Source: Burkholderiales bacterium Ga0077543 (lineage in GTDB: Bacteria > Pseudomonadota > Gammaproteobacteria > Burkholderiales > Burkholderiaceae_C). From it: 64,000 nt of DNA. Shown in pieces: positions 46,586 through 58,003 of the stretch (position 1 is the first letter of the stretch; each line of letters begins with the position of its first letter). The position numbers and the translations under genes were made by a program. Below the pieces are notes generated by a model. That model saw only the letters and a program-made list of their open reading frames with translations. It was not told where the DNA came from and did no database searches. Location of the stretch: assembly GCA_001464055.1 (NCBI GenBank), contig LNET01000038.1:62001-126000 (forward strand), given 5' to 3'.

Positions 46586-47569
46586 ATGCGATTCGCCACC
46601 CTGCGCGACGGCAGCCTCGACGGCCGCCTCGTCCTCGTCTCGGGCGATGGCCAGCGCGCCGTCGACGCGGCGCCGGTCGCGCCCTCGCTCATCAGTGCGC
46701 TGCAGCGCTGGACGGCCGTGCAGCCGGCGCTGCAGGCGCTGGCCGATGCGCTGGACACCGGACGCGCCGCCGGCGCCTTCGACTTCGACCCGCGCGCCTG
46801 CGCCGCTCCGCTGCCGCGCAGCCCGCAGTGGCTGGACGGCTCGGCCTTCCTCAACCACGGCCGGCTGATGGACAAGGCCTTCGACAAGCCGCCGCCACCG
46901 CTGGTGGACACGGTGCCGCTGATGTACCAGGGCGCAAGCGACGACTTCCTCGGCCCGCACGACGATGTGCCCATGCCCACCGAGGCCGACGGCATCGACT
47001 TCGAGGGCGAGTTCGCCGTCGTCACCGGCCCCGTGCCGATGGGCGTGTCGCCGGCCGACGCACTGGGCTGCGTGCGCCTGGTGCTGCAGCTCAACGACTG
47101 GAGCCTGCGCGCCCTGGGCCCGCACGAGATGAAAACCGGCTTCGGCTTCCTGCAGGCCAAGCCCTCGACCGCGTTCGCGCCGCTGGCGGTGACGCCTGAG
47201 GAACTGGGCGACGCCTGGCAAGACGGCCGCGTGCACTTGCGGCTGCACGTGCAGTGGAACGGTGATCGCTTCGGCGAGCCGCACGGCGGCGAGATGAACT
47301 TCCACTTCGGGCAGCTGATCGCGCACGCGGCGCGCACGCGGCGGCTCACCGCCGGCTGCATCGTCGGCTCGGGCACGGTGTCCAACGTGGCGCGCACGGC
47401 CGGCTCGGCCTGCATCGCCGAGCGCCGCGTGATCGAGAAGATCGACCTCGGCGAAAGCCGCACCGCCTTCATGCGCTTCGGCGACCGCGTGCGCATGCAG
47501 GCGCGGCACGCCGACGGACGCGAAGGACCCTTCGGTGTGATCGAGCAGCGGGTGGTCCAGGCGGCGTGA
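46586..47569 (+). CDS. Fumarylacetoacetate hydrolase family protein
   Basis: A 327-residue FAH-fold protein. FLNHGRLMDKAF, GIDFEGEFAVV (metal Glu), LNDWSLRALGPHEM, FLQAKPSTAFAP and VGSGTVSN are diagnostic of the larger FAH-like group. It ends the fde-like operon and would hydrolyse the final acylpyruvate-type intermediate, releasing pyruvate or oxaloacetate. It might also support the homogentisate module, which has no FAH of its own here. Confidence 0.85.
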   Translation: MRFATLRDGSLDGRLVLVSGDGQRAVDAAPVAPSLISALQRWTAVQPALQALADALDTGRAAGAFDFDPRACAAPLPRSPQWLDGSAFLNHGRLMDKAFDKPPPPLVDTVPLMYQGASDDFLGPHDDVPMPTEADGIDFEGEFAVVTGPVPMGVSPADALGCVRLVLQLNDWSLRALGPHEMKTGFGFLQAKPSTAFAPLAVTPEELGDAWQDGRVHLRLHVQWNGDRFGEPHGGEMNFHFGQLIAHAARTRRLTAGCIVGSGTVSNVARTAGSACIAERRVIEKIDLGESRTAFMRFGDRVRMQARHADGREGPFGVIEQRVVQAA

Positions 47570-47641
47570 ACGGGGCGCCGGGCTCGGCGGACGGCAGCCG
47601 CTCGACGAGGTCCGTGCCCGTGTCGCCCGGCCTGCCGGCCT

Positions 47642-48100
47642 TCAGCTTTCGAGATTCGCGCGCAGGCGCGTCAGCAGGCCCAGCAGCGTCTCGCGCTCGG
47701 CCGGGCTGAGGCCGGCGGCGGCGGCCTCGGCCTCGCGGCGGCGCTGGCGCTGCACCGTGTCGTGCAGTGCCCGGGCCTGCGGCGACAGCGACAGCCGCGT
47801 CACGCGACCGTCGTGCCCATCGGGTTCGGCCAGCAGCAGGCCACGGTCGCGCAGCGCCTGCACCAGCCGCGCAAGCTGGCCCTTGTCGCGCCCGGCGTGC
47901 TCGGCCAACTCGGTCAGCGTGGCCCCGGGCCGCCGCGCGAAGAAACCCAGCAGCCGCGCCTCCAGCGGCGTCAGCCCCAGGCCGGCGTCGCGCAGCGCCT
48001 GGTGATGGCGGGCGCGGGCTGCGTGCACGACGGCATGCAGCGCGTCGAGCAGCTCCGACACACCGCCCATTTCGTTGACATTGTCAATCTTGTTTGCCAT
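47642..48100 (-). CDS. MarR-family repressor
   Basis: A 152-residue MarR protein: TLTELAEHAGRDKGQLARLVQALRDRGLL is the recognition region and LLAEPDGHDGRVTRLSL the wing. It diverges from a siderophore-interacting reductase. Two related inverted repeats sit in the shared region and in its own first codons, suggesting autoregulation and repression of the neighbour. The ligand is unknown, possibly iron-related or an aromatic from the adjacent cluster. Confidence 0.85.
   Translation of the reverse strand: MANKIDNVNEMGGVSELLDALHAVVHAARARHHQALRDAGLGLTPLEARLLGFFARRPGATLTELAEHAGRDKGQLARLVQALRDRGLLLAEPDGHDGRVTRLSLSPQARALHDTVQRQRRREAEAAAAGLSPAERETLLGLLTRLRANLES
48075..48087. promoter_or_regulatory. 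MarR-type operator A
   Basis: TTGAC-ATT-GTCAA, a perfect inverted repeat located within the first codons of marR. It shares the form TTGAY-N3-RTCAA with operator B and lies 31 bp away, centre to centre, about three helical turns. Confidence 0.55.
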
Positions 48101-48905
48101 GATTGTTGATCATATCAACCATCTCGGAGATTGCTGCTTGCACACCGAACCAGGTTTTGCCGGGCGCGACCCGACCCCACGCCGCCGCGTCGAGCGCGTG
48201 CGCTTCGAACTGCGCCGGCGCGAACTGGTGGTCGCGCGCGTCGAACGGCCGACACCGGGCTTCGCCGCCATCACGCTGGCCGGGGCGGCGCTGGAAGGCT
48301 TCCAGTCGCTGTCGTTCGACGACCACCTCAAGCTGATGCTGCCGCATCCCGACGGCACGGTGGTCATGCGCGACATCACGCCACGCGCCTTCGACGCCGC
48401 GCGGCAGGAACTGCGCCTGGAGATCGCGCTGCACGGGCACGGCCCGGCCAGCATATGGGCGGCGCAGGCCAAGCCGGGGCAACCGGCGGTGATCGGCGGG
48501 CCGCGCGGCTCGATGATCATCCCGGCCGACTTCGACTGGCACCTGCTGGCCGGCGACGCCTCGGCGCTGCCGGCCATCCTGCGCCGCCTGGACGAGCTGC
48601 CTGCGGGCTGCATGGCACAGGTGCTGGTGCAGGTGGACGATGCCGCCGACGAACGCAGGCTGAACAGCGCCGCCACGGTGCGGGCACGCTGGGTGCGCAC
48701 CCCCGCGCAGTGGCTGCAGCAGTTGCGCGATGCCGACTGGCCGGCCGGCGAGGGTTTCGCGTGGCTGGCCGGCGAAGCGCGCGTGGTGGCCCAGGCACGG
48801 CGGATCGTGCTGGGCGAGCACCACCACCCGCGCGAGGCGCTGCGCGCAGCGGCCTACTGGAAGCAGGGCGCCGCGGCCTTCCACGAGCAGCTTGACGAGG
48901 CCTGA
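48099..48905 (+). CDS. Siderophore-interacting protein (FAD ferric-reductase family)
   Basis: A protein of up to 268 residues with the SIP/ViuB fold. VARVERPTPGFAAITLAGAAL, HLKLMLPHP and RDITPRAFD form the FAD domain; GPRGSMIIPADFDWHLLAGDASALPAI the NADPH domain. These reductases release iron from siderophores in the cytoplasm. The start is uncertain: the ATG at 48099 overlaps marR and an operator, while a TTG at 48138 has GGAG 8 bp upstream and gives a cleaner N terminus. It may be linked to the TonB receptor at 36558, or to iron supply for the many iron enzymes here. Confidence 0.85.
   Translation: MIVDHINHLGDCCLHTEPGFAGRDPTPRRRVERVRFELRRRELVVARVERPTPGFAAITLAGAALEGFQSLSFDDHLKLMLPHPDGTVVMRDITPRAFDAARQELRLEIALHGHGPASIWAAQAKPGQPAVIGGPRGSMIIPADFDWHLLAGDASALPAILRRLDELPAGCMAQVLVQVDDAADERRLNSAATVRARWVRTPAQWLQQLRDADWPAGEGFAWLAGEARVVAQARRIVLGEHHHPREALRAAAYWKQGAAAFHEQLDEA
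48105..48119. promoter_or_regulatory. MarR-type operator B
   Basis: GTTGAT-CAT-ATCAAC, a perfect inverted repeat 5 bp upstream of the marR start codon in the A/T-rich divergent region. It fits the 13- to 18-bp palindromes bound by MarR dimers. Confidence 0.6.
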
Positions 48906-48950: not shown

Positions 48951-51900
48951 TCAGCGCGCGGCCTGAAACAGCGTGGTCACCTCGGCGGCCGTGAGCACGC
49001 GGCCGTAGGCCCGCACGCCGTCGATCACTGCATAGGCCGGGTCGCGCAGTCCGCCGCTGAACCGGGCGCGGCCCACGGCAAAGGCACCGTTGGCCGCCCA
49101 GCGGGTGCTGTTGGCCAGCGTGCCGGCCAGGCGGCCGTTGACGTACAACGCCATCGTGTTGGAAGTGGCGTCGCGCACCGCCACCAGGTGGTACCAGGCG
49201 CCGGTGACGATGGTCTCGGTGTCGGTGATGCGGAAGGTCGGGCTGGCGTCGGCATCCGCGCCCAGCATCGCGAAGGTCGCGCGGGGCAGGCCGCCGCCGC
49301 AAGGCGGCACGATACCAAGGTAGAAGCCCGACACCGTCACCCCGTCCTGGCTGGCCAGGATCTGGTTCCAGCAGGTGGGCAGCTGGTCGAAGCGGATCCA
49401 CCCCGACACGCTGAAGCTGCCCGCGGTGTCGAGCACTCGCGCTGCGGTCGTCGCACCCGCGCCCGAGCCCGGGCCCGCGAACTGCAGCGCCGCGCCGGCC
49501 CGCCCGCTGGCGGTGACGGCCACGCCACTGCCCAGCGTGAGCGTGCGGCCGTTGCCGCTGCTGTCGGGTGCACCGGTGCCGCTGGCGGCGTCGAAGCTCC
49601 ACTCGGCCAGCGCGCCGGCAGGCAGCGTGCCTGTGGCGGCGGCCGTCACCGTCATCGAGACGGCCGCGCCGGTGGTGGCCGCACCGGCGTTGTCGAAGGC
49701 GCGCGCGGTCAGCGCGTAGGTGCCTGCGACGCTTGGCGTCCAGCCCAGGGTGTAGGGCGCCGTGGTGTCGCTGCCCAGCAGCGTGCCGCCGGCGTAGAAC
49801 TCCACGCGCGCCACGCTCCCGTCGGCATCGGCGGCAGTGGCCGACAGTGCGACAACGGTGCCGGTGGCCACGCTGGTGCCGCCGGCTGGGGCTGTGAGCG
49901 ACACCGTTGGCGGCTGGTTGACCGGTGGCGGCGTCGGCGATGCGGAGCCGCTCCACACCCGGGCCTCGAGAATGCCGGTAGCCAGGGCACTGCGCATGGA
50001 GACGCGGATGCTGGTGGTCGTGACCGGCGCGAAGTCCAGCCGGTTGAAGCGGTTCAGCAGCAGGCCCGGCGAACCCAGTGCGACCCAGGCACTGCCGTTC
50101 CAGTGTTCCACCGCAGCGGCGGTCGGCGTGCCGATGCCTGCGCCGTCGTTCCACCAGTAGACCTCGAAGGCCGAGACGCTGCGCGCCGTGGGCCAGCTGA
50201 AGCTGACCCAGTCGGTCCGGCCGTAATTGACCGGGCCTTCCCAGTTGCCATAGGCGCCGCCGCTGCGGTCGGCCGAACTCGCCGGCAGGCGTCCGTCGTT
50301 CACCGCCGCCAGGGTTTCCCATGGCGAGACGTGGGAGGTGGCCAGGGTGGCCGAAGGCGCCAGATTGGTGCTCTGCACGGGCGGGGGCGCGATGATGCTG
50401 AAGGCCACCGCAGCGCTGGTGGTGGAGGCACCGGTGTTGTCGAAGGCGCGCGCGGTCAGCGAGTAAGCGCCAGCCGTGGCGGGGGCCCAGCTCAGGGCGT
50501 AGGGCGCGGTGGCGTCGGTGCCCAGCAGCGTGCCACCGGCGTAGAACTCCACCCGGGCCACGCTGCCATCGGCATCGGCGGCGGTGGCCGCCAAGGTCAC
50601 CGCGGTGCCGGTGGCCACGCTGGTGCCGCCGGCCGGCGCCGTGAGCGCCACCGTCGGCGCCTGGTTGGCGGGGGGCGGTGCGCCCGGCGCGTACAGCTGC
50701 GCCACCGGCACCCGGGCCCAGGCGCCGCCAGGGCGCAGCCAGCTCAGCTGCAGCACCGCGCCGCCGCCGAACTCCTGGAACTCCACGACGATAGGCACCC
50801 GCTGCCCGGCCGCCAGTGCGATGCCGGCCGAGGTGTCGACGGTGGGCGGATGCGCCGTCCAGTTGTTGATGAGCAGCACGCCGTTCACCCACACGCGCAC
50901 GCCGTCGTCCGACAAGGTGCGGAACTGGTACGTGCCGGCCTCCACGGCCTGGATCTCGCCCGTCCAGCGCACCGAAAAGTTGTCCGCCCCGATGCCGGGT
51001 GCGGGCGCACCCACCCCCCAGTCGAACCATGGCACTTCCGTGCGCGTGACCACGGCCGTGCCAGCGAGCGTGGTGTTGTTGAAGTAGCTGGCCCGCAGGC
51101 CCGTGCCGGTGCTGGCCGCGGGCACGCCCGGACCCGGCTCGTCGCCACCGATCTGCTGCAGGTAGGCCACCAGGTTGGCCAGGTCGGCCCCGGCCACGGT
51201 GCTGCCCGCATGCGCCTGCACGGCCGCCGCCAGCGTCGGCGCGCTGCCGTCGTGCAGGTAGGGCGCGGTGGCCCACAGGTCGCGCAGCGTGGGCGCGTCG
51301 ATGCCCGTCAGGGGCGCGCCCAGGCGACCGCCGCTGCTCGGCTTGAGCGTACCGATGCTGCGCAGCGAGCCCGCGTCACCGCTGATCGTGAAACCCGCCC
51401 CCGTGTGGCAGCTGGCGCAGTTGGCGTTGGTGAACACCGTCCTGCCGGCGATGGCGGCGGCCGTGAGCGTGCCGTCGGCGTTGCGGTTGGGGCTGCGTTC
51501 GAAGGTGGTAAGCGAGCCGAGGTAGGCCGCCAGCGCGTCGAGGTCGCCGCTGAGGCCGGCCTTGCGGTCGCCCAGCGGGGTGTTGCGCGTGCCCGCGTTA
51601 AACTGCGCGTCCGCCATCAGTCCGGTGCCCCCGGCAAAGGCGCGGATCTGGCCTTCGAAGTCCTGCACCTCGTCGAAGTTGGCGCTCCAGTGCACGAAGC
51701 CTTGGGCCATGCCGGCGCGGCCGGCCAGCGCCGGGGTGTTGCGCAGGCCTTCGCCGAAGTGCGTGAAGTCCCAGGTGCGGCCGTCGTGGCCGGCGTCGCT
51801 GTGGCAGCTGGCGCAGCTCATGTAGCTGTCGCGCGCCAGGCGCGGGTCGCGGGCGTCGTAGAAGAGCTGCTTGCCCAGCAGCACCTGGGCGCTCAGGCGC

Positions 51901-54900
51901 TCCGCACCCGTCGTGGCCACGGTGGCCACAGTCGGGAACTGCGGCAGGCCCTCGCGCACCAGCGGGCCGAGGTCGACCACGCTGGCCGAGCGGTCCATGA
52001 AGTTCTGCACGTACAGCCGGGTACCGTCGGCCGAGACAGCCAGCGCCTGCGGCGCACGGCCGACATCGAACTTCACCAGCTCGCGGCCGCGGAAGGCGTC
52101 CACCACCGCCACCTGGCGGCTGGTCTCCAGCGCCACGAACAGGTACGCACCACTGGGGTGGTAGGCCGCGGCCGTGCCCAGGCTGGCGTTGTCGTGGTCG
52201 ATGCGGCTGGCGTGATCCTCGGCCAGCGTGGCCATGTCGATGCGCGAGCTGATGGCGCGCACCGTGTTCTGGAAGTCCAGCGGCTGGCCATTGCGCAGCG
52301 CGCCGCGCCGGATGTTGTCCTGCTTCGATGGCACCCAGGCGCGGGCGCCGTCGGGCGAGATGGTGGCCGCGGCCAGGTAGTTGGGCAGGCCGGCGCCCTG
52401 GTTCTCGTTGTCGACCTTGTCGCTATGGCGCAGCACGATGCTGCGGTTCAGCGTCATCGGGCCGGCGTTCACCGCCAGCACCTCGGCGCCGCCCGCGGCG
52501 GTGTCGACGGTGGCCGTGCCTTCGCCAGGCAGCGGGTTGGTGATGAAGCGCGAGACCAGCACGAGGGCGCCATTGGCCGACGCCGACACGTGCCGCGCGT
52601 TGGCGCCCACGGCCAGCGTGGCCTGCACGGCGCCCGTGGCCGGGTCGAGCTTGAGCAGCTGGCCGGTGGCCTCGAGCACCACGAAGGCACTGCCGCCGGG
52701 CGCGAAGGCCAGGCCGTGCGGCTGCGCCGCCGACGGCAGCGCCACCGTGGCCACCACCGTGAGCGTGGCGGGGCTGAGGATGCTGATGCTCGACGAGCCC
52801 TTGTTGGTGACCCAGAGGCGGCCGTCGGGTGCGACGGCCACCGCGCGCGGCGAGCTGCCCACGGCGACCTCGGCCACGCGGGTATTGCTGGCGGTGTCGA
52901 TCACGGCAACCGTGTTGCTGTCGGGGTTGGCCACCCACAGCCGCGCCGAAGCGCCGCCGCGTGCTTCCAGCGCCACGGCCGAGGAGGCCGCGGGCCGGCC
53001 CGGCGTGGGCGGCGTGCCCACCGCCTGCAGGAAGGTGCGCGCGGTGGTGCGCCCGGCGGTGTCGCGTGCCGAGAGCGTGACGGCATAGACCCCCGGGTTG
53101 GCGAAGCTTCGCGTGATCGACGCGGCGGCGCTGAACGGCGTGGCGGGCGTGCCGTCGCCGAAGTCCCAGCTGTAGCTGACGCCGGCCTGCGCCGCGACGG
53201 CGTAGCTTGCGCTGCCGCCGGCGTTGATGACCGGGGCGTTGATGACATCGGTCACGGTGGGAGGCGTGTAGGGTGTCACCGGCACCTGCGGCGCGCCGAC
53301 ACCCTGGCCGACGGCGATGATGGTGCCGCGCGAAGGCACGCCGCTGGCGTCCACCGCCACGAGCTGGTAGTAGCCCGGGGGCACCAGGGTGTTGGCCGGC
53401 ACGGTGGCCGTGATGCGGAACTGCTCCTGGGTGAAGGCCATCGGGATGCGGCGCTGCCCCGAGTTGAACGAGTGCGTACCGACGCTCAAGCCGATCAGCA
53501 CGGTCTCGCGGATGGTGGCCGTCGAAGCCAGGTCGAACTGCAGCTGCGCACCGTTCGCATGGCGCAGGCCGCTCACACCCACCAGGCGCGGGCGAGGCGC
53601 CAGTTGCGCGGCTCCGTTCACCGTGCGGAACAGGTACGGCGGATAGAAGACATCGCCGCGAAGCTGAACCGGCCCGGGCGTGCCGCCGCCAGTCACCAGC
53701 ACGGTGCCGTTGGGCAGCAGGCTGGCCTGCGAGTGGTAGCCGCGGAACACGGTCGAGGCCGCCATGCGGGCCCAGGTGCCGTTGGCCGGGTTCCACATTT
53801 CGGCCGTGTATGCGCCGAAGGCGGGATCGTTGTTGGCGCGGGTTTCCCCGCCGGTGACCACCACCTTGCCATCGGGCAGGACCACCACGCCCGCGTAGTG
53901 GCGGCCGAAGGCCATCAGCGGCTGCTCGGTGCGTGCGGCGCCACCACCGTTGAGGTCGATGACCGTGGCCTGACGGCTGCCGGCCCAGCCCAGGCCGTTG
54001 TGGTAGGCGTTGCCGCCGACCATCAACACCCGGCCGGGCGCGTACATCACACCCGTGGACGTCGGGCCGGCGTTGGGGGCGTTGTCGTTGGTGAAGGCGC
54101 CACCGGGCGCCCCTTTCCACCCGCCGACGATGGTGGTCGTGCCCTGGCCGCCCGCGGCGTTGGCGTCGACGTACCACATCTGGTCGGTGCTGACGCCGAA
54201 GACGCGCCCGTCCGGCGCAAGCCAGGCCTTGGGCATCGACGCGCGCAGAACGTCAGGGCCCCAGGCCGTGCGGCTCTGGGCGTTGAACAGGGTCCGCCAG
54301 GCACCGTTCTCGTAGACCTCGGGCGTCATCGACGACAAGCCTTCGGTCAGCGCCCCCGCCACGTTGTTCCACTGACCCTCGGTGTAGGGCGCAATGCCGC
54401 CCAGGATGATGGGGCGGCCGTCGGCCAGCGTGATCATCGTGGCGTACCAGCGCGAGTCGGCCACGTTGCCTGCCGCAGGCATGGCACCGCTGCTGGGTTC
54501 GTAGGCGACGCTGGTGACGTTGCCGTTGCCGCCGGTGATGAGCAGTTGCCCACTGGACAGGTAGGTCGCAGCAGCGCAGAAGCTGTCCTGGCGCGTCGGG
54601 TCGTAGGTGGTGACGTGCGCGCCGGCATCGAAGAGGCCGCGGTTGGGGTCCCACACGTCGAAGTAGCGGCCGTTCTGCGCGTTGCCGTCGGGCGTGGTGC
54701 CCCAGGTCAGCACCTTGCCGTCGGGCAGCACGGCCTGGTGCAGCCCGTTCATCGGCCAGGGGCCGACGCCCGACCACATGCCCTGCGTGGGCGCACTGGC
54801 TGGAATGGCCAGGCCCTGCAGCAGCGCATCGGTGGGCGCCGGCACGCTCACCCAGCCTGTCGGGTTGACCGTGACCGCGAGCGCCCGAGCCCGCCCCTCC

Positions 54901-55046
54901 TCGCCCGACAGCGCCGCCTGCTCCGGATTCGACGGCGCGCGATCACCGCCGCCGCAAGCGGCCAGTGCCGCTGCGACCAGGAGTGTTGCAAGCGCAGAGC
55001 GGTGGCAAGGGCGGCGCGTCAGGCGAGGGTGTGGGCGATGGGTCAT
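48951..55046 (-). CDS. Giant lipoprotein: copper-radical oxidase fused to dihaem peroxidase and binding modules
   Basis: A 2031-residue surface lipoprotein (lipobox LAAC, Cys31). Residues ~60-580 are a galactose/glyoxal-oxidase-like kelch domain. Cys157, Tyr201, Tyr437, His438 and His525 align with the five key GaoA positions (Cys228, Tyr272, Tyr495, His496, His581), so the Cys-Tyr cofactor and copper site look intact. Next come a PKD domain (~600-680), a YVTN-type propeller (~700-1030) and a MauG/cytochrome-peroxidase-like domain. The last has two CASCH haem sites (Cys1078-His1082 and Cys1210-His1214) and APYLHDGSAPTL. PA14 (~1318-1453), Ig-like, F5/8-type, Ig-like and LamG modules end the chain. 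It probably oxidises a bound carbohydrate or aldehyde and reduces the peroxide formed. A SCO protein gene lies 51 bp upstream in the same direction. Confidence 0.88.
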   Translation of the reverse strand: MTHRPHPRLTRRPCHRSALATLLVAAALAACGGGDRAPSNPEQAALSGEEGRARALAVTVNPTGWVSVPAPTDALLQGLAIPASAPTQGMWSGVGPWPMNGLHQAVLPDGKVLTWGTTPDGNAQNGRYFDVWDPNRGLFDAGAHVTTYDPTRQDSFCAAATYLSSGQLLITGGNGNVTSVAYEPSSGAMPAAGNVADSRWYATMITLADGRPIILGGIAPYTEGQWNNVAGALTEGLSSMTPEVYENGAWRTLFNAQSRTAWGPDVLRASMPKAWLAPDGRVFGVSTDQMWYVDANAAGGQGTTTIVGGWKGAPGGAFTNDNAPNAGPTSTGVMYAPGRVLMVGGNAYHNGLGWAGSRQATVIDLNGGGAARTEQPLMAFGRHYAGVVVLPDGKVVVTGGETRANNDPAFGAYTAEMWNPANGTWARMAASTVFRGYHSQASLLPNGTVLVTGGGTPGPVQLRGDVFYPPYLFRTVNGAAQLAPRPRLVGVSGLRHANGAQLQFDLASTATIRETVLIGLSVGTHSFNSGQRRIPMAFTQEQFRITATVPANTLVPPGYYQLVAVDASGVPSRGTIIAVGQGVGAPQVPVTPYTPPTVTDVINAPVINAGGSASYAVAAQAGVSYSWDFGDGTPATPFSAAASITRSFANPGVYAVTLSARDTAGRTTARTFLQAVGTPPTPGRPAASSAVALEARGGASARLWVANPDSNTVAVIDTASNTRVAEVAVGSSPRAVAVAPDGRLWVTNKGSSSISILSPATLTVVATVALPSAAQPHGLAFAPGGSAFVVLEATGQLLKLDPATGAVQATLAVGANARHVSASANGALVLVSRFITNPLPGEGTATVDTAAGGAEVLAVNAGPMTLNRSIVLRHSDKVDNENQGAGLPNYLAAATISPDGARAWVPSKQDNIRRGALRNGQPLDFQNTVRAISSRIDMATLAEDHASRIDHDNASLGTAAAYHPSGAYLFVALETSRQVAVVDAFRGRELVKFDVGRAPQALAVSADGTRLYVQNFMDRSASVVDLGPLVREGLPQFPTVATVATTGAERLSAQVLLGKQLFYDARDPRLARDSYMSCASCHSDAGHDGRTWDFTHFGEGLRNTPALAGRAGMAQGFVHWSANFDEVQDFEGQIRAFAGGTGLMADAQFNAGTRNTPLGDRKAGLSGDLDALAAYLGSLTTFERSPNRNADGTLTAAAIAGRTVFTNANCASCHTGAGFTISGDAGSLRSIGTLKPSSGGRLGAPLTGIDAPTLRDLWATAPYLHDGSAPTLAAAVQAHAGSTVAGADLANLVAYLQQIGGDEPGPGVPAASTGTGLRASYFNNTTLAGTAVVTRTEVPWFDWGVGAPAPGIGADNFSVRWTGEIQAVEAGTYQFRTLSDDGVRVWVNGVLLINNWTAHPPTVDTSAGIALAAGQRVPIVVEFQEFGGGAVLQLSWLRPGGAWARVPVAQLYAPGAPPPANQAPTVALTAPAGGTSVATGTAVTLAATAADADGSVARVEFYAGGTLLGTDATAPYALSWAPATAGAYSLTARAFDNTGASTTSAAVAFSIIAPPPVQSTNLAPSATLATSHVSPWETLAAVNDGRLPASSADRSGGAYGNWEGPVNYGRTDWVSFSWPTARSVSAFEVYWWNDGAGIGTPTAAAVEHWNGSAWVALGSPGLLLNRFNRLDFAPVTTTSIRVSMRSALATGILEARVWSGSASPTPPPVNQPPTVSLTAPAGGTSVATGTVVALSATAADADGSVARVEFYAGGTLLGSDTTAPYTLGWTPSVAGTYALTARAFDNAGAATTGAAVSMTVTAAATGTLPAGALAEWSFDAASGTGAPDSSGNGRTLTLGSGVAVTASGRAGAALQFAGPGSGAGATTAARVLDTAGSFSVSGWIRFDQLPTCWNQILASQDGVTVSGFYLGIVPPCGGGLPRATFAMLGADADASPTFRITDTETIVTGAWYHLVAVRDATSNTMALYVNGRLAGTLANSTRWAANGAFAVGRARFSGGLRDPAYAVIDGVRAYGRVLTAAEVTTLFQAAR
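49650..49915 (-). repeat. Duplicated Ig-like module, copy 2
   Basis: Encodes an Ig-like domain nearly the same as the one at 50395-50655: both contain LTAPAGGTSVATGT, ADADGSVARVEFYAGGTLLG and LTARAFDN. The DNA is also nearly identical in long blocks, pointing to recent duplication or gene conversion within one gene. Confidence 0.85.
50395..50655 (-). repeat. Duplicated Ig-like module, copy 1
   Basis: First of two near-identical Ig-like units in the oxidase/peroxidase gene. It is separated from copy 2 by an F5/8-type (discoidin-like) carbohydrate-binding domain of about 130 residues. Confidence 0.85.
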
Positions 55047-55097: not shown

Positions 55098-55868
55098 TCA
55101 GGCGCCAGCGCGGCGCGTCAGTTCGTCCAGTGCCGGGATTTCGCGCAGCAGGCGCTTCACATCGGGCGGGTTGCCGTCGTAGCGCAGGCGCAGTTGTCCG
55201 TTGCGGTCGATGAGCCACAGGCCGGTGGCATGGTCATCGGGGCGACGCACTTCCGGCCCGGGCCGGAACAGGCGCAGCGCATCAGACACGCGTTCGATGT
55301 CCTCCGGGCGCCCCGTGACAAAGCTCCAGCCCGACAGGTCGACCCCCATGCGCACCGCGTAGGCCTTCAGCGCCTGCGGTGTGTCGCCCAGCGGGTCGAG
55401 CGAGACCGACAGCAGCCGCACCCGTGGCCGCACGGCCGGCGGCAACTGGCGCTGAAGCTCGGCCAGAGCGGCGATCTGCACCGGGCAGACGGTGGAGCAG
55501 CCTGTGAAGACGAAGTTGGCCAGCACCGTCCGACCCACCAGGACCGCGGGATCGAACCTGCGGCCTTCCTGGTTCAACAGGTGCATGCCGCGGAAGTTGG
55601 CGTAAAAGCTGCTGCCTGCCCCGCCCGCGTTCGCCCGGGCCAGCGGCGCCGAGAAGGCCGCCGCCCAGCCGAGCGCTGCACTGGTGACCGCCTGCTGCAG
55701 CCAGTGGCGGCGCGAGACTGCGCGGCGGTCTGCGCCAGGGGCCAAGCCGGCCGTCAGACCCCGCGCATGCCAGGGCGACAAGTCATCGGTTGCGGTTGCG
55801 GTTGCGGTTGCGCTTGTGCTCTTCCAGTCCCTCGGTTCGGGCGCGTGCTTCTTCGACAACTTGTTCAT
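55098..55868 (-). CDS. SCO1/SenC-family copper chaperone
   Basis: A 256-residue SCO protein. The thioredoxin fold carries the copper-binding FTGCSTVCP (Cys124, Cys128) and the third ligand His213 in DDHATGLW. An unusual long N-terminal segment with Ala-Thr repeats precedes a twin-arginine-like/hydrophobic export signal (SRRHWLQQAVTSAALGWAAA). Its stop is 51 bp before the giant oxidase gene on the same strand. SCO proteins normally load copper into cytochrome oxidase. None is nearby, so delivering copper to the fused oxidase is the best contextual role. Confidence 0.9.
   Translation of the reverse strand: MNKLSKKHAPEPRDWKSTSATATATATDDLSPWHARGLTAGLAPGADRRAVSRRHWLQQAVTSAALGWAAAFSAPLARANAGGAGSSFYANFRGMHLLNQEGRRFDPAVLVGRTVLANFVFTGCSTVCPVQIAALAELQRQLPPAVRPRVRLLSVSLDPLGDTPQALKAYAVRMGVDLSGWSFVTGRPEDIERVSDALRLFRPGPEVRRPDDHATGLWLIDRNGQLRLRYDGNPPDVKRLLREIPALDELTRRAGA
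55788..55811. repeat. GGTTGC hexamer repeat (4 copies)
   Basis: Four exact tandem GGTTGC units inside the SCO gene, encoding an Ala-Thr linker ahead of the export signal. Unit-number change would keep the frame and alter linker length only. Confidence 0.8.
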
Positions 55869-56002
55869 CTGCAGTTCCGGCGCCCGTGGGCATGGGGCTT
55901 TTTCCTCGCGCAGTGTGTGTAACAAATGGTTCAATCCGGGTTCAATCCAGGCACCCCCCCGCGAAGCCGGGGCTCCACGGCGGACGAACCCGCATTTACC
56001 CG

Positions 56003-58003
56003 ATGAGCGCACCGTCGACGGTTTCAGACCCAAGCACCACCACCCTGCGATTCGGGCGCTGCGAGCTGCTGCTGCAAACGCGCGAGCTGCGGGTGTCCGG
56101 ACGGCCAGAGCCCGTGCGACGGCGCGTGTTCGACCTGATGGCGTTCCTGGTGGCGCAGCGCCATCGCGTGGTGTCTCATCACGAGCTGCTGCGCCAAGTG
56201 TGGGGCAGTGCCCAGGTCTCGCCCAAGATGCTGGCGCGTGCGGTCATGGAAGCGCGTCGTGCCTGCGGCGACCCGGCCGAAGAGCCCGGGCTCTTCGTCT
56301 CGGTGCGGGGGGTGGGTTACCGCTTCGTCGGCACCCTCACCGAGGCATCGACCTCGCCATCCCCAGCCGACACGGCGGTCGAGGACCCGAGCGAGGTCCG
56401 CAGCCTGCTGCGCAGAGCCCGCCAGGCGCTCGACGCCGGCCGGCTCGACGAGGCCCAGGTCTTGGCCGCCGAGGCCCAGGCCGGGGCCGACAGGGGGCCC
56501 TCGCACGCCGACCGGGTGCAGGCCCTGGTGCTGCGTTCGTCAATGGCCATGCGCAGGGGCACCGCCGCCGAAGCCGCGAGGCTGGCTGCCCATGCGCTGC
56601 AGATCGCGCGCGCCGAAGGCCAGCCGCAGCTGGTGGCCCAGGCGCGGCTGGCGGTGGGCTACGTCCACCTGGTGGAGGGCGACCGGGCCTTGGCCATCAG
56701 GCACTTCGAAGAGTCCCGCGAGGCCCTCTCGGCGCGTGGCCATGAGCGCGATCTGCTGACCTGCCTGAACCGGCTGGCCATGGCGTTCCGGGACACTGGC
56801 AAGCCTGAGTCGGGCTTGCAGATGAACCGGCGCGCCCTGGTTCTCGCGCGCCAGCTCAGGGACCCGGATGCCATCCTGATCGCGCGCAACAACGAGGTGA
56901 TGTTCCTGCTTTACATCGGCGACAGGCAGAGCGCCGAAGGACAGGCTGCTGCCGCCCGCAAGACCTTCGAGGAAGCACTGGCGCTCGTGGATGGGCTGCT
57001 GCAGGACCAGCCCGCCGGCGCCGGCAGCCGCCAGCGGCAGTCGGCGCTGGGCAACCGCGCCTTCGTCCTCCAGCGCCTGGGCCGGCTTGACGAAGCCTGG
57101 TCCATGCTGTCCGAGCTCGAGGTCGAGTCCGAAGGCTGCAGATGGTTGGACAGCCCCATCCATGCCGAGCGGCAGATGGTCACCCGGGAACTCAGGGCCA
57201 CGCTGCTGGCCGACGCCGGCCGGCACGACGAAGCGCTCGAGCTGCTGGGCCAGAGCGTCGAGGCGGCGGTGCGCCTGGGGCGCCACGGCGCCTTGCCACG
57301 CCTGTACGGCCTGGCCGGCGACATCGCCGAGCGGGCAGGCCGGCTGGCGCAGGCGCTGCGCTGGGTGCGGCTACAAGGTGACGCGCAGGTGGCCCTGCGT
57401 GCCAGCGAAGCGAGCGCGCTGGCACTCATCCTGGAAGCCGAGATGAACGCCGAGAACCTGCAAGCCGAACTGCATCGGGCGCGGGCGCAGGTGGCAGCGC
57501 TGCAGCAGGAGAACGCAGGGCTGCGGCAGCGCGCGGAGCTGATGCAGGGCGCGGCACCGGTGGCGGCAGACACCGGCCTGGCAGGCAGCGAGCAGCTCAC
57601 GGCATTGTTCTCGGCGCGGCACCATCACGCACGCGTCAAGGGCTTGCCGATGTGCCTGGGGCTGCTGGAGTGGGCGCCGGATCAGCCGCTGGCTCCCGCC
57701 GCACTTCGGGGCATCGCCGAGGTTCTGGCGGCGCAGGCCGACATTGCCTACCCGGCTGTCGACCAGGGCGCGGTGGGCGTGGTGTTCCGCATCCGTGACG
57801 CGGGGCCCTCGCACGCCGCCGAGGTGTGCCGGCGCGTGCTGGACGCGCTCGAGCGCCAGACCTGGTCGCGCCCGGGCACCGGGCAGCCGCCTTCGTGGCG
57901 ATGCCGCAGCGCCGATGCGGCATGCTTCGGCTCGATCGAGCAATGCATCCAGAGCCTGGCGCATCGCTCGCCGACACCGGACAAGCACATGGCCGACGAA
58001 TGA
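56003..58003 (+). CDS. Winged-helix (OmpR-type) and TPR regulator
   Basis: A 666-residue protein without receiver domain. Residues ~14-113 form an OmpR/CadC-type winged helix (RRRVFDLMAFLVAQRHRVVSHHELLRQVWG ... SVRGVGYRFVG, abbreviated in two parts). A long TPR-type helical array follows (~130-500), then a coiled-coil and a C-terminal region with a possible degenerate GGDEF-like fold. No membrane helix is apparent, unlike CadC. It diverges from the SCO gene with 134 bp between starts, so control of the SCO/oxidase operon is likely. Confidence 0.8.
   Translation: MSAPSTVSDPSTTTLRFGRCELLLQTRELRVSGRPEPVRRRVFDLMAFLVAQRHRVVSHHELLRQVWGSAQVSPKMLARAVMEARRACGDPAEEPGLFVSVRGVGYRFVGTLTEASTSPSPADTAVEDPSEVRSLLRRARQALDAGRLDEAQVLAAEAQAGADRGPSHADRVQALVLRSSMAMRRGTAAEAARLAAHALQIARAEGQPQLVAQARLAVGYVHLVEGDRALAIRHFEESREALSARGHERDLLTCLNRLAMAFRDTGKPESGLQMNRRALVLARQLRDPDAILIARNNEVMFLLYIGDRQSAEGQAAAARKTFEEALALVDGLLQDQPAGAGSRQRQSALGNRAFVLQRLGRLDEAWSMLSELEVESEGCRWLDSPIHAERQMVTRELRATLLADAGRHDEALELLGQSVEAAVRLGRHGALPRLYGLAGDIAERAGRLAQALRWVRLQGDAQVALRASEASALALILEAEMNAENLQAELHRARAQVAALQQENAGLRQRAELMQGAAPVAADTGLAGSEQLTALFSARHHHARVKGLPMCLGLLEWAPDQPLAPAALRGIAEVLAAQADIAYPAVDQGAVGVVFRIRDAGPSHAAEVCRRVLDALERQTWSRPGTGQPPSWRCRSADAACFGSIEQCIQSLAHRSPTPDKHMADE

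Follow-up and report, generated by a model that had tools for sequence, protein, structure and literature searches.

The window analysed here, a stretch of 64,000 nucleotides from Burkholderiales bacterium Ga0077543 (GCA_001464055.1, contig LNET01000038.1, positions 62,001 to 126,000 of the forward strand), carries a gene for a 2031-residue protein in which a copper-radical oxidase (CRO) is joined to a beta-propeller and a dihaem domain. Sequence establishes the parts of this fusion, the conservation of their sites, the SCO and cytochrome c genes found as neighbours and the pairing of the dihaem module with CROs of three lineages. The recurrence of one dihaem base with three kinds of copper enzyme in related bacteria suggests that the two parts work together. 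We tentatively favour, rating it somewhat short of probable, an anchored redox pair of oxidase and haem module acting in cis, which would serve both the activation of the oxidase and the handling of its peroxide.

A copper-radical oxidase and a dihaem module in one frame

A sequence-only reading of the window had described a single gene for an anchored lipoprotein. Both points held: the gene is one ATG-to-stop frame on the minus strand (no strand had been given), and a lipobox, LAAC, is predicted at Cys31, which is invariant in the 26 rows of alignment A1. Pfam and NCBIfam matches give the order CRO, PKD, YVTN propeller, dihaem domain, PA14, Ig-like and LamG (Table 1), with the early-set domain GO-like_E_set at residues 485-579 (E 3e-15) and CCP_MauG at 1053-1115 (E 6e-11). 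In a search against the PDB, residues 51-579 of the window protein matched galactose oxidase and residues ~1053-1310 matched dihaem peroxidases. The PA14, Ig-like and LamG modules described in the earlier reading were recovered by Pfam. The F5/8-type module claimed with them found no Pfam support, being absent from the 17 families at E <=0.001 and from the 25 listed of 28 families at E <=1. Among the 26 members of A1 the early-set, PKD and CCP_MauG families were matched in every protein, Glyoxal_oxid_N in 25, He_PIG in 21, PA14 in 19 and F5/8 in 10; because of these counts we regard the core of the fusion as fixed and its binding modules as variable.

The five signature residues attributed to the oxidase (Cys157, Tyr201, Tyr437, His438 and His525) do align with the copper site of galactose oxidase (GOase), whose residue numbers we counted along the alignment. 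We take GOase C228 to be the thioether partner, Y272 to be the cross-linked tyrosine and all five aligned residues to be catalytic. By these residues in the alignment the window protein belongs with the AA5-like CROs, and it probably makes hydrogen peroxide; its score against the GlxA family of NCBIfam (NF052501) is 136 bits, below the cut-off of 800. The five residues are unvarying in the 36 CRO-fused rows of alignment A3, and a second alignment has them in 48/48 fused and 21/21 standalone CRO rows, the split gene L105 being counted there as standalone.

A search for this domain architecture, proposed as a check in the sequence-only reading and confined to the organism's own phylum, showed that the fusion recurs in the genus and the family and rarely in other orders. 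The organism's own genome (5.19 Mb, 130 contigs) holds three fusions, on contigs C38, C25 and C71. Within the genus, 19 of 81 genomes matched at 1e-20, and all 19 encode the two parts in a single frame; within the family 53 of 399 matched, at least 24 of them with both parts in one frame, and the reading of loci added fusions in G324, G247, G444 and G198. The phylum (398 genomes), order (300) and class (274) samples each have the fusion in at least two genomes, the organism's own plus G542, G871 and G1290, respectively, and the family of G542 has it in at least 3 of 121. The family, phylum, order and class counts are lower bounds with at most two candidates scored per genome (up to eight in the genus and five in the G542 family). 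The fusion is rarer outside its own family. In a named genome collection, two of nine pattern matches encode a relative, both metagenome-assembled genomes, called Rubrivivax and Aquabacterium. Plasmid searches gave one fusion record, UST56369.1, annotated just as 'discoidin domain-containing protein'. In G866, G984 and G1131 the CRO and propeller-dihaem genes are separate within each genome.

An assembly error, which the earlier reading had allowed for, is ruled out by this recurrence, and we give next to no credence to an assembly or annotation artefact. One gene is split or frameshifted (L105, 3133-8633, with the CRO and the propeller-dihaem module in two overlapping frames), but the same open frame is found in many genomes, on long contigs (G446 C1, 5.1 Mb, locus L103; G275 C1, 6.6 Mb, L172) and as one gene on a complete plasmid.

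Table 1 Features of the fusion gene and its upstream neighbour in the window.
Feature	Position	Strand	Basis
Fusion gene, 2031 aa	48951..55046	-	Single ATG-to-stop frame
Signal peptide and lipobox, Cys31	54954..55046	-	Sequence; lipobox LAAC
CRO domain, residues 89-579	53310..54782	-	Pfam, NCBIfam (GlxA-type), PDB search, alignment
Cys157, aligned with GOase Cys228	54576..54578	-	Alignment
Tyr201, aligned with GOase Tyr272	54444..54446	-	Alignment
Tyr437-His438, aligned with GOase Tyr495-His496	53733..53738	-	Alignment
His525, aligned with GOase His581	53472..53474	-	Alignment
PKD domain, residues 617-674	53025..53198	-	Pfam
YVTN-type beta-propeller, residues ~700-1045	51912..52949	-	NCBIfam and PDB search
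Dihaem domain, residues ~1046-1300	51147..51911	-	Pfam, PDB sequence/profile searches
First haem motif CASCH, 1078-1082	51801..51815	-	Sequence
Pocket signature HWSANFDEVQDFE, 1119-1131, its Trp taken as inter-haem	51654..51692	-	Conservation
Second haem motif CASCH, 1210-1214	51405..51419	-	Sequence
His1279, at the Met-ligand position of the peroxidase E haem	51210..51212	-	Alignment, conservation
PA14 domain, residues 1315-1441	50724..51104	-	Pfam
Ig-like domain Big_7, first copy	50451..50657	-	Pfam
Ig-like domain, second copy, approximate	49647..49850	-	Pfam, NCBIfam
LamG/concanavalin-like domain; Laminin_G_3 residues 1860-2023	48978..49469	-	Pfam
SCO1/SenC copper-chaperone gene, CSTVC motif, directly upstream of fusion	55098..56033	-	PF02630 1.4e-22

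Three oxidase lineages, their neighbours and a possible common dihaem base

In a tree of 69 CRO rows, the fused CROs form three main lineages with standalone CROs interspersed, and that of L160 stands apart. We call these lineages types I, II and III; the window protein is of type I. Forcing the 49 fused rows together (L105 counted as fused, L152 excluded) cost 534 log units and was rejected by the approximately unbiased (AU) test (p 3e-54), so that a single origin of the fused CROs is rejected. A tree of 64 propeller-dihaem rows allows the 50 CRO-linked rows to form a single clade (AU p 0.802, or 0.746 for the 49 rows without L160). The types were named after viewing the CRO tree, and the AU tests therefore do not concern groups set beforehand. 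The free propeller-dihaem tree has the CRO-free L153-L155 among the CRO-linked rows; in it a single branch sets type III off from all other rows, and types I and II are intermingled. All trees were quick searches and are unrooted, and the free search was not exhaustive, because the constrained propeller-dihaem trees outscored it. We read the trees as heads that may have been swapped on one dihaem base. The GGSW motif of galactose oxidase follows the types: it is present in 22/22 of type II, 0/11 of type I and 0/16 of type III, absent in L160 and present in 2/19 standalone CROs. L081, which had no CRO match by phmmer and keeps the five residues in A3, was put into type II by hand, and the halves of L105 were read apart. 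Neither trees nor counts include L005 (taken as the same genome as L068) or L006 (its contig breaks off within the propeller); an SCO gene adjoins both. L160 (651-10208, G542) encodes 3186 aa with five malectin stretches, PA14, the CRO, an extra kelch propeller and the propeller-dihaem module.

The SCO gene adjoins 32 of 50 fusion loci, the split gene included: 10/10 of type I, 22/23 of type II, 0/16 of type III and 0/1 for L160. It was found at 0/19 standalone-CRO loci and 0/14 CRO-free propeller-dihaem loci, together 0/33. For types I and II (33/34 with L150 included) against these 33 controls, Fisher's test gives p 2.5e-18, a value that ignores relatedness, omits type III and L160 and compares flanks of different length. 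The type I loci with SCO alongside (11/11) comprise nine fused genes, one split gene and L150 (4352-8114, G622), whose type-I-like CRO carries ricin-type lectin repeats and lacks the dihaem part. The presence of the SCO gene even there suggests that it is the copper site which SCO serves. A small cytochrome c gene adjoins 20/23 type II loci and no others; as read in L173 the protein has a CVNCH motif and a hydrophobic N-terminus, and Pfam Cytochrom_C was matched in one of three tested. No other neighbour cluster occurred in more than five loci of types I-III, apart from apparent shadow frames judged by eye.

In the window, a plus-strand frame with winged-helix and TPR regions (55790-58003), regulator-like, is divergent from the SCO-fusion pair, and genes of fumarylacetoacetate-hydrolase, MarR and siderophore-interacting flavoprotein types lie downstream of the fusion (46586-48905). 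In the plasmid locus L173 (6400-20151, CP099607.1), a type II fusion and its cytochrome c and SCO genes lie close to pcaGH and further genes of the protocatechuate pathway. This proximity, a possible hint at the substrate, was observed once, in the plasmid copy.

A propeller-dihaem module of the peroxidase/MauG superfamily

Both CASCH haem sites described by the sequence-only reading are in place, and these motifs and Trp1120 are unvarying in the 36 CRO-fused rows of A3; in L083 the second site reads CxxxCH. Seven tabulated positions of the pocket signature are the same in 64/64 propeller-dihaem rows, save that Gln1128 is His in L075. Residue 1279 stands 14 after the conserved His1265 and is His in 47/48 fused rows (Ala in L167) and also in L081 and L105; it is His in 3/14 CRO-free rows, all of one family, and not in the other 11. 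We take the Met aligned at this position to be the ligand of the peroxidase E haem. The His/Met second haem of a classical cytochrome c peroxidase was thus not found, His1279 occupying the Met position in the alignment, and a His/His second haem is predicted. For the first haem, residue 1087 is His in 25/36 rows, at a position that differs from what we take to be the peroxidase ligand position.

The CCP_MauG score (43.7 bits, cut-off 25.6) and the two CxxCH motifs place the domain in the dihaem peroxidase/MauG superfamily, with the MauG family itself, TIGR03791, scoring below its cut-off (41.9 bits, cut-off 443.85). Hydrazine synthase beta-gamma (NF052342) reached 65.5 bits, far under its cut-off of 1250, yet is the best NCBIfam match around residues 993-1217. 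A profile of the 36 dihaem domains found hydrazine synthase gamma first in the PDB (3.6e-18, 69.2 bits) and a peroxidase second (65.1 bits), then others and MauG, whereas the window sequence alone found the peroxidases 3o5c and 1iqc ahead of hydrazine synthase gamma, which came third. These results together place the domain in the superfamily and leave its nearest branch unsettled.

A propeller followed by a dihaem domain on one chain makes the protein a hydrazine synthase beta-gamma homologue in the wide sense. Because this order is shared, the propeller likely belongs to the haem module; the PKD domain and the propeller do lie between the two enzymes as the earlier reading had it, while the propeller is better counted with the second of them. 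Likewise its MauG/peroxidase-like domain stands as a superfamily assignment, but the narrower label of dihaem peroxidase is not secured: besides peroxidases and MauG, the module also resembles hydrazine synthase beta-gamma, His1279 stands at the Met position, the distal side has no invariant His, and CRO-free relatives exist. Those relatives include L106, L107, L156-L159, L161, L162, L164, L165 and L168. An LVIVD propeller and Big_5 were found in four of five CRO-free proteins scanned (L106, L107, L156 and L161), and neither in L153. The neighbours of CRO-free loci, judged by eye, are mixed, some lying near sugar ABC-transporter-like genes. L177 (G1428) has the propeller-dihaem module in frames of 2179 and 2265 aa; the two candidates scored in that genome gave no CRO match.

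A proposed joint action of the two parts and known systems compared

In the scheme we favour, a lipoprotein at the cell surface would unite an oxidase with its redox partner in a single chain. The CRO domain would receive copper from SCO and develop its Tyr-Cys cofactor, and the PA14, LamG and Ig-like modules would hold a glycan or plant-derived polymer. The CRO would oxidise alcohol, aldehyde or hemiacetal groups on the held polymer and release H2O2, which the dihaem module, open at its first haem, would take as oxidant. Through the oxidising equivalents the CRO would be maintained as the active radical and peroxide would be removed, and electrons may pass between the second haem and the small cytochrome c whose gene adjoins type II fusions. 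What we infer in this scheme is that copper and haem are bound, that the protein is exposed at the surface, that H2O2 is used and the oxidase activated, and also the path of the electrons and the substrate. We favour this scheme because a fungal peroxidase-CRO pair and the GlxA, DtpA and Sco proteins of Streptomyces, described below, offer a model for it.

The coupled function proposed by the sequence-only reading gains support from the three-lineage pairing and the adjoining copper-chaperone gene. Several observations weigh against it. In 36 fusions the CRO and the PKD domain are between 35 and 498 aa apart, which speaks against a single rigid copper-haem geometry, and we set aside a rigid copper-haem wire. 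Neither SCO nor a cytochrome c gene adjoins the type III fusions (0/16) or L160, and no cytochrome c gene adjoins type I loci. The pocket signature is equally conserved in the CRO-free relatives, and the aligned loop of the first haem has no invariant distal His in the 36 CRO-fused rows. AlphaFold2 models of the CRO domain (A4, three rows; mean pLDDT 38.8) and of PKD-propeller-dihaem (A5, three rows; 47.4) were too poor to judge. Moreover, since the trees are unrooted, old fusions could have lost their dihaem part, leaving standalone CROs between fused ones.

Below the in-cis pair we rank, in this order, co-localisation, pure scavenging and reversed electron flow. In the first of these, which we consider somewhat unlikely, the propeller-dihaem module has a substrate of its own, as hydrazine-synthase-like, MauG-like or RoxA-like proteins may have, and merely shares a polymer-binding scaffold with an independent CRO. 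The module does occur without other recognised enzyme domains in L153, and with an LVIVD propeller in place of the CRO and the same pocket signature in L106, L107, L156 and L161; the widely variable linker and the narrow lead of hydrazine synthase gamma in the profile search point the same way. On the other hand, one module clade is partnered by CROs of three lineages, and His1279 is nearly confined to the CRO-bearing clade, so that the second haem site goes with that clade. Unlikely in our view is self-protection alone, in which a dihaem peroxidase removes the CRO's H2O2 with cytochrome c electrons and leaves the copper site unaffected. The superfamily of the module, the cytochrome c peroxidase 3o5c as the best solved relative by single sequence and the cytochrome c gene beside type II fusions are consistent with it, but types I and III have no such gene adjoining, and the predicted His/His second haem would be at odds with the His/Met ligation of the high-potential haem in classical enzymes (PMC10094543).

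Still less likely, we think, is the reverse flow, in which the copper site is re-oxidised through the dihaem module to cytochrome c instead of O2, making the protein a cytochrome-linked copper-radical dehydrogenase. We know of no CRO that works in this way, and many members have long linkers. The cytochrome c gene beside type II fusions would fit, as would the bis-His haem of the relative hydrazine synthase gamma, for which electron exchange with a cytochrome c, there the acceptor, has been proposed (PMC12607021). More broadly, the fusions may form a new class of wired copper-radical enzymes with one dihaem base and three lineages of CRO head, in which electrons would pass between copper site, dihaem module and cytochrome c and the CRO would be either kept active by its haem partner or a cytochrome-linked dehydrogenase at the cell surface; this we regard as doubtful, albeit worth entertaining.

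To our knowledge, how CROs are switched on in nature is largely open; peroxidases switch them on in vitro. A natural fusion found with three CRO lineages, often with SCO and cytochrome c genes alongside, makes this question testable in one protein, and is a lead for self-activating alcohol-oxidising biocatalysts. We know of no assigned role for the propeller-dihaem relatives of hydrazine synthase outside anammox, for which the fusion would supply a redox context. No CRO-dihaem fusion is named in the titles or abstract openings of the literature surveyed, in which subscription journals are sparsely represented, so that a claim of novelty in print would go too far; the main-text passages covered of PMC11267884 and PMC3543389 make no mention of cytochrome.

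Like galactose oxidase and GlxA (CAZy AA5), the window protein has the five copper-site residues with kelch-like and early-set domains, and type II fusions share the GGSW motif of galactose oxidase; unlike them, the window's type I, and type III, lack GGSW, and the protein is a predicted lipoprotein fused to a haem module. Another bacterial CRO joined to a further domain is an AA5 alcohol oxidase reportedly fused to an inactive CE3 domain, to go by a title attributed to Mazurkewich (2023), where the partner, by that title, is not a redox module. With bacterial cytochrome c peroxidase, MauG and MbnH the fusion shares the CCP_MauG domain and two CxxCH motifs, but it has His at the Met position of the second haem (47/48 fused), no invariant distal His and an attached propeller. 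Hydrazine synthase beta-gamma and its fused homologues outside anammox (PMC12758564) have a propeller and then a dihaem domain in the same order, whereas our fusion carries a CRO head and scores far under the family cut-off. Hydrazine synthase gamma has His144 where its homologues have Trp (PMC12758564), and the fusion module has a conserved Trp at this position, if the alignment holds.

The two systems that serve as our model pair a CRO with a haem protein on separate chains. A fungal peroxidase activates a co-secreted CRO more than horseradish peroxidase does, and electron paramagnetic resonance supports a one-electron oxidation (PMC9770985); unlike the fusion, this tandem peroxidase-alcohol oxidase pair consists of two secreted proteins, with a class II-type peroxidase, not a dihaem one. 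In Streptomyces, GlxA makes H2O2 that DtpA uses, DtpA does not boost GlxA, and the maturation of GlxA is disturbed when Sco or DtpA is missing, a defect that copper rescues (PMC4736821). Although these are separate proteins and the peroxidase is of DyP type, a CRO, a haem peroxidase and an Sco chaperone stand there in one functional group, as the fusion and its neighbouring gene may do here.

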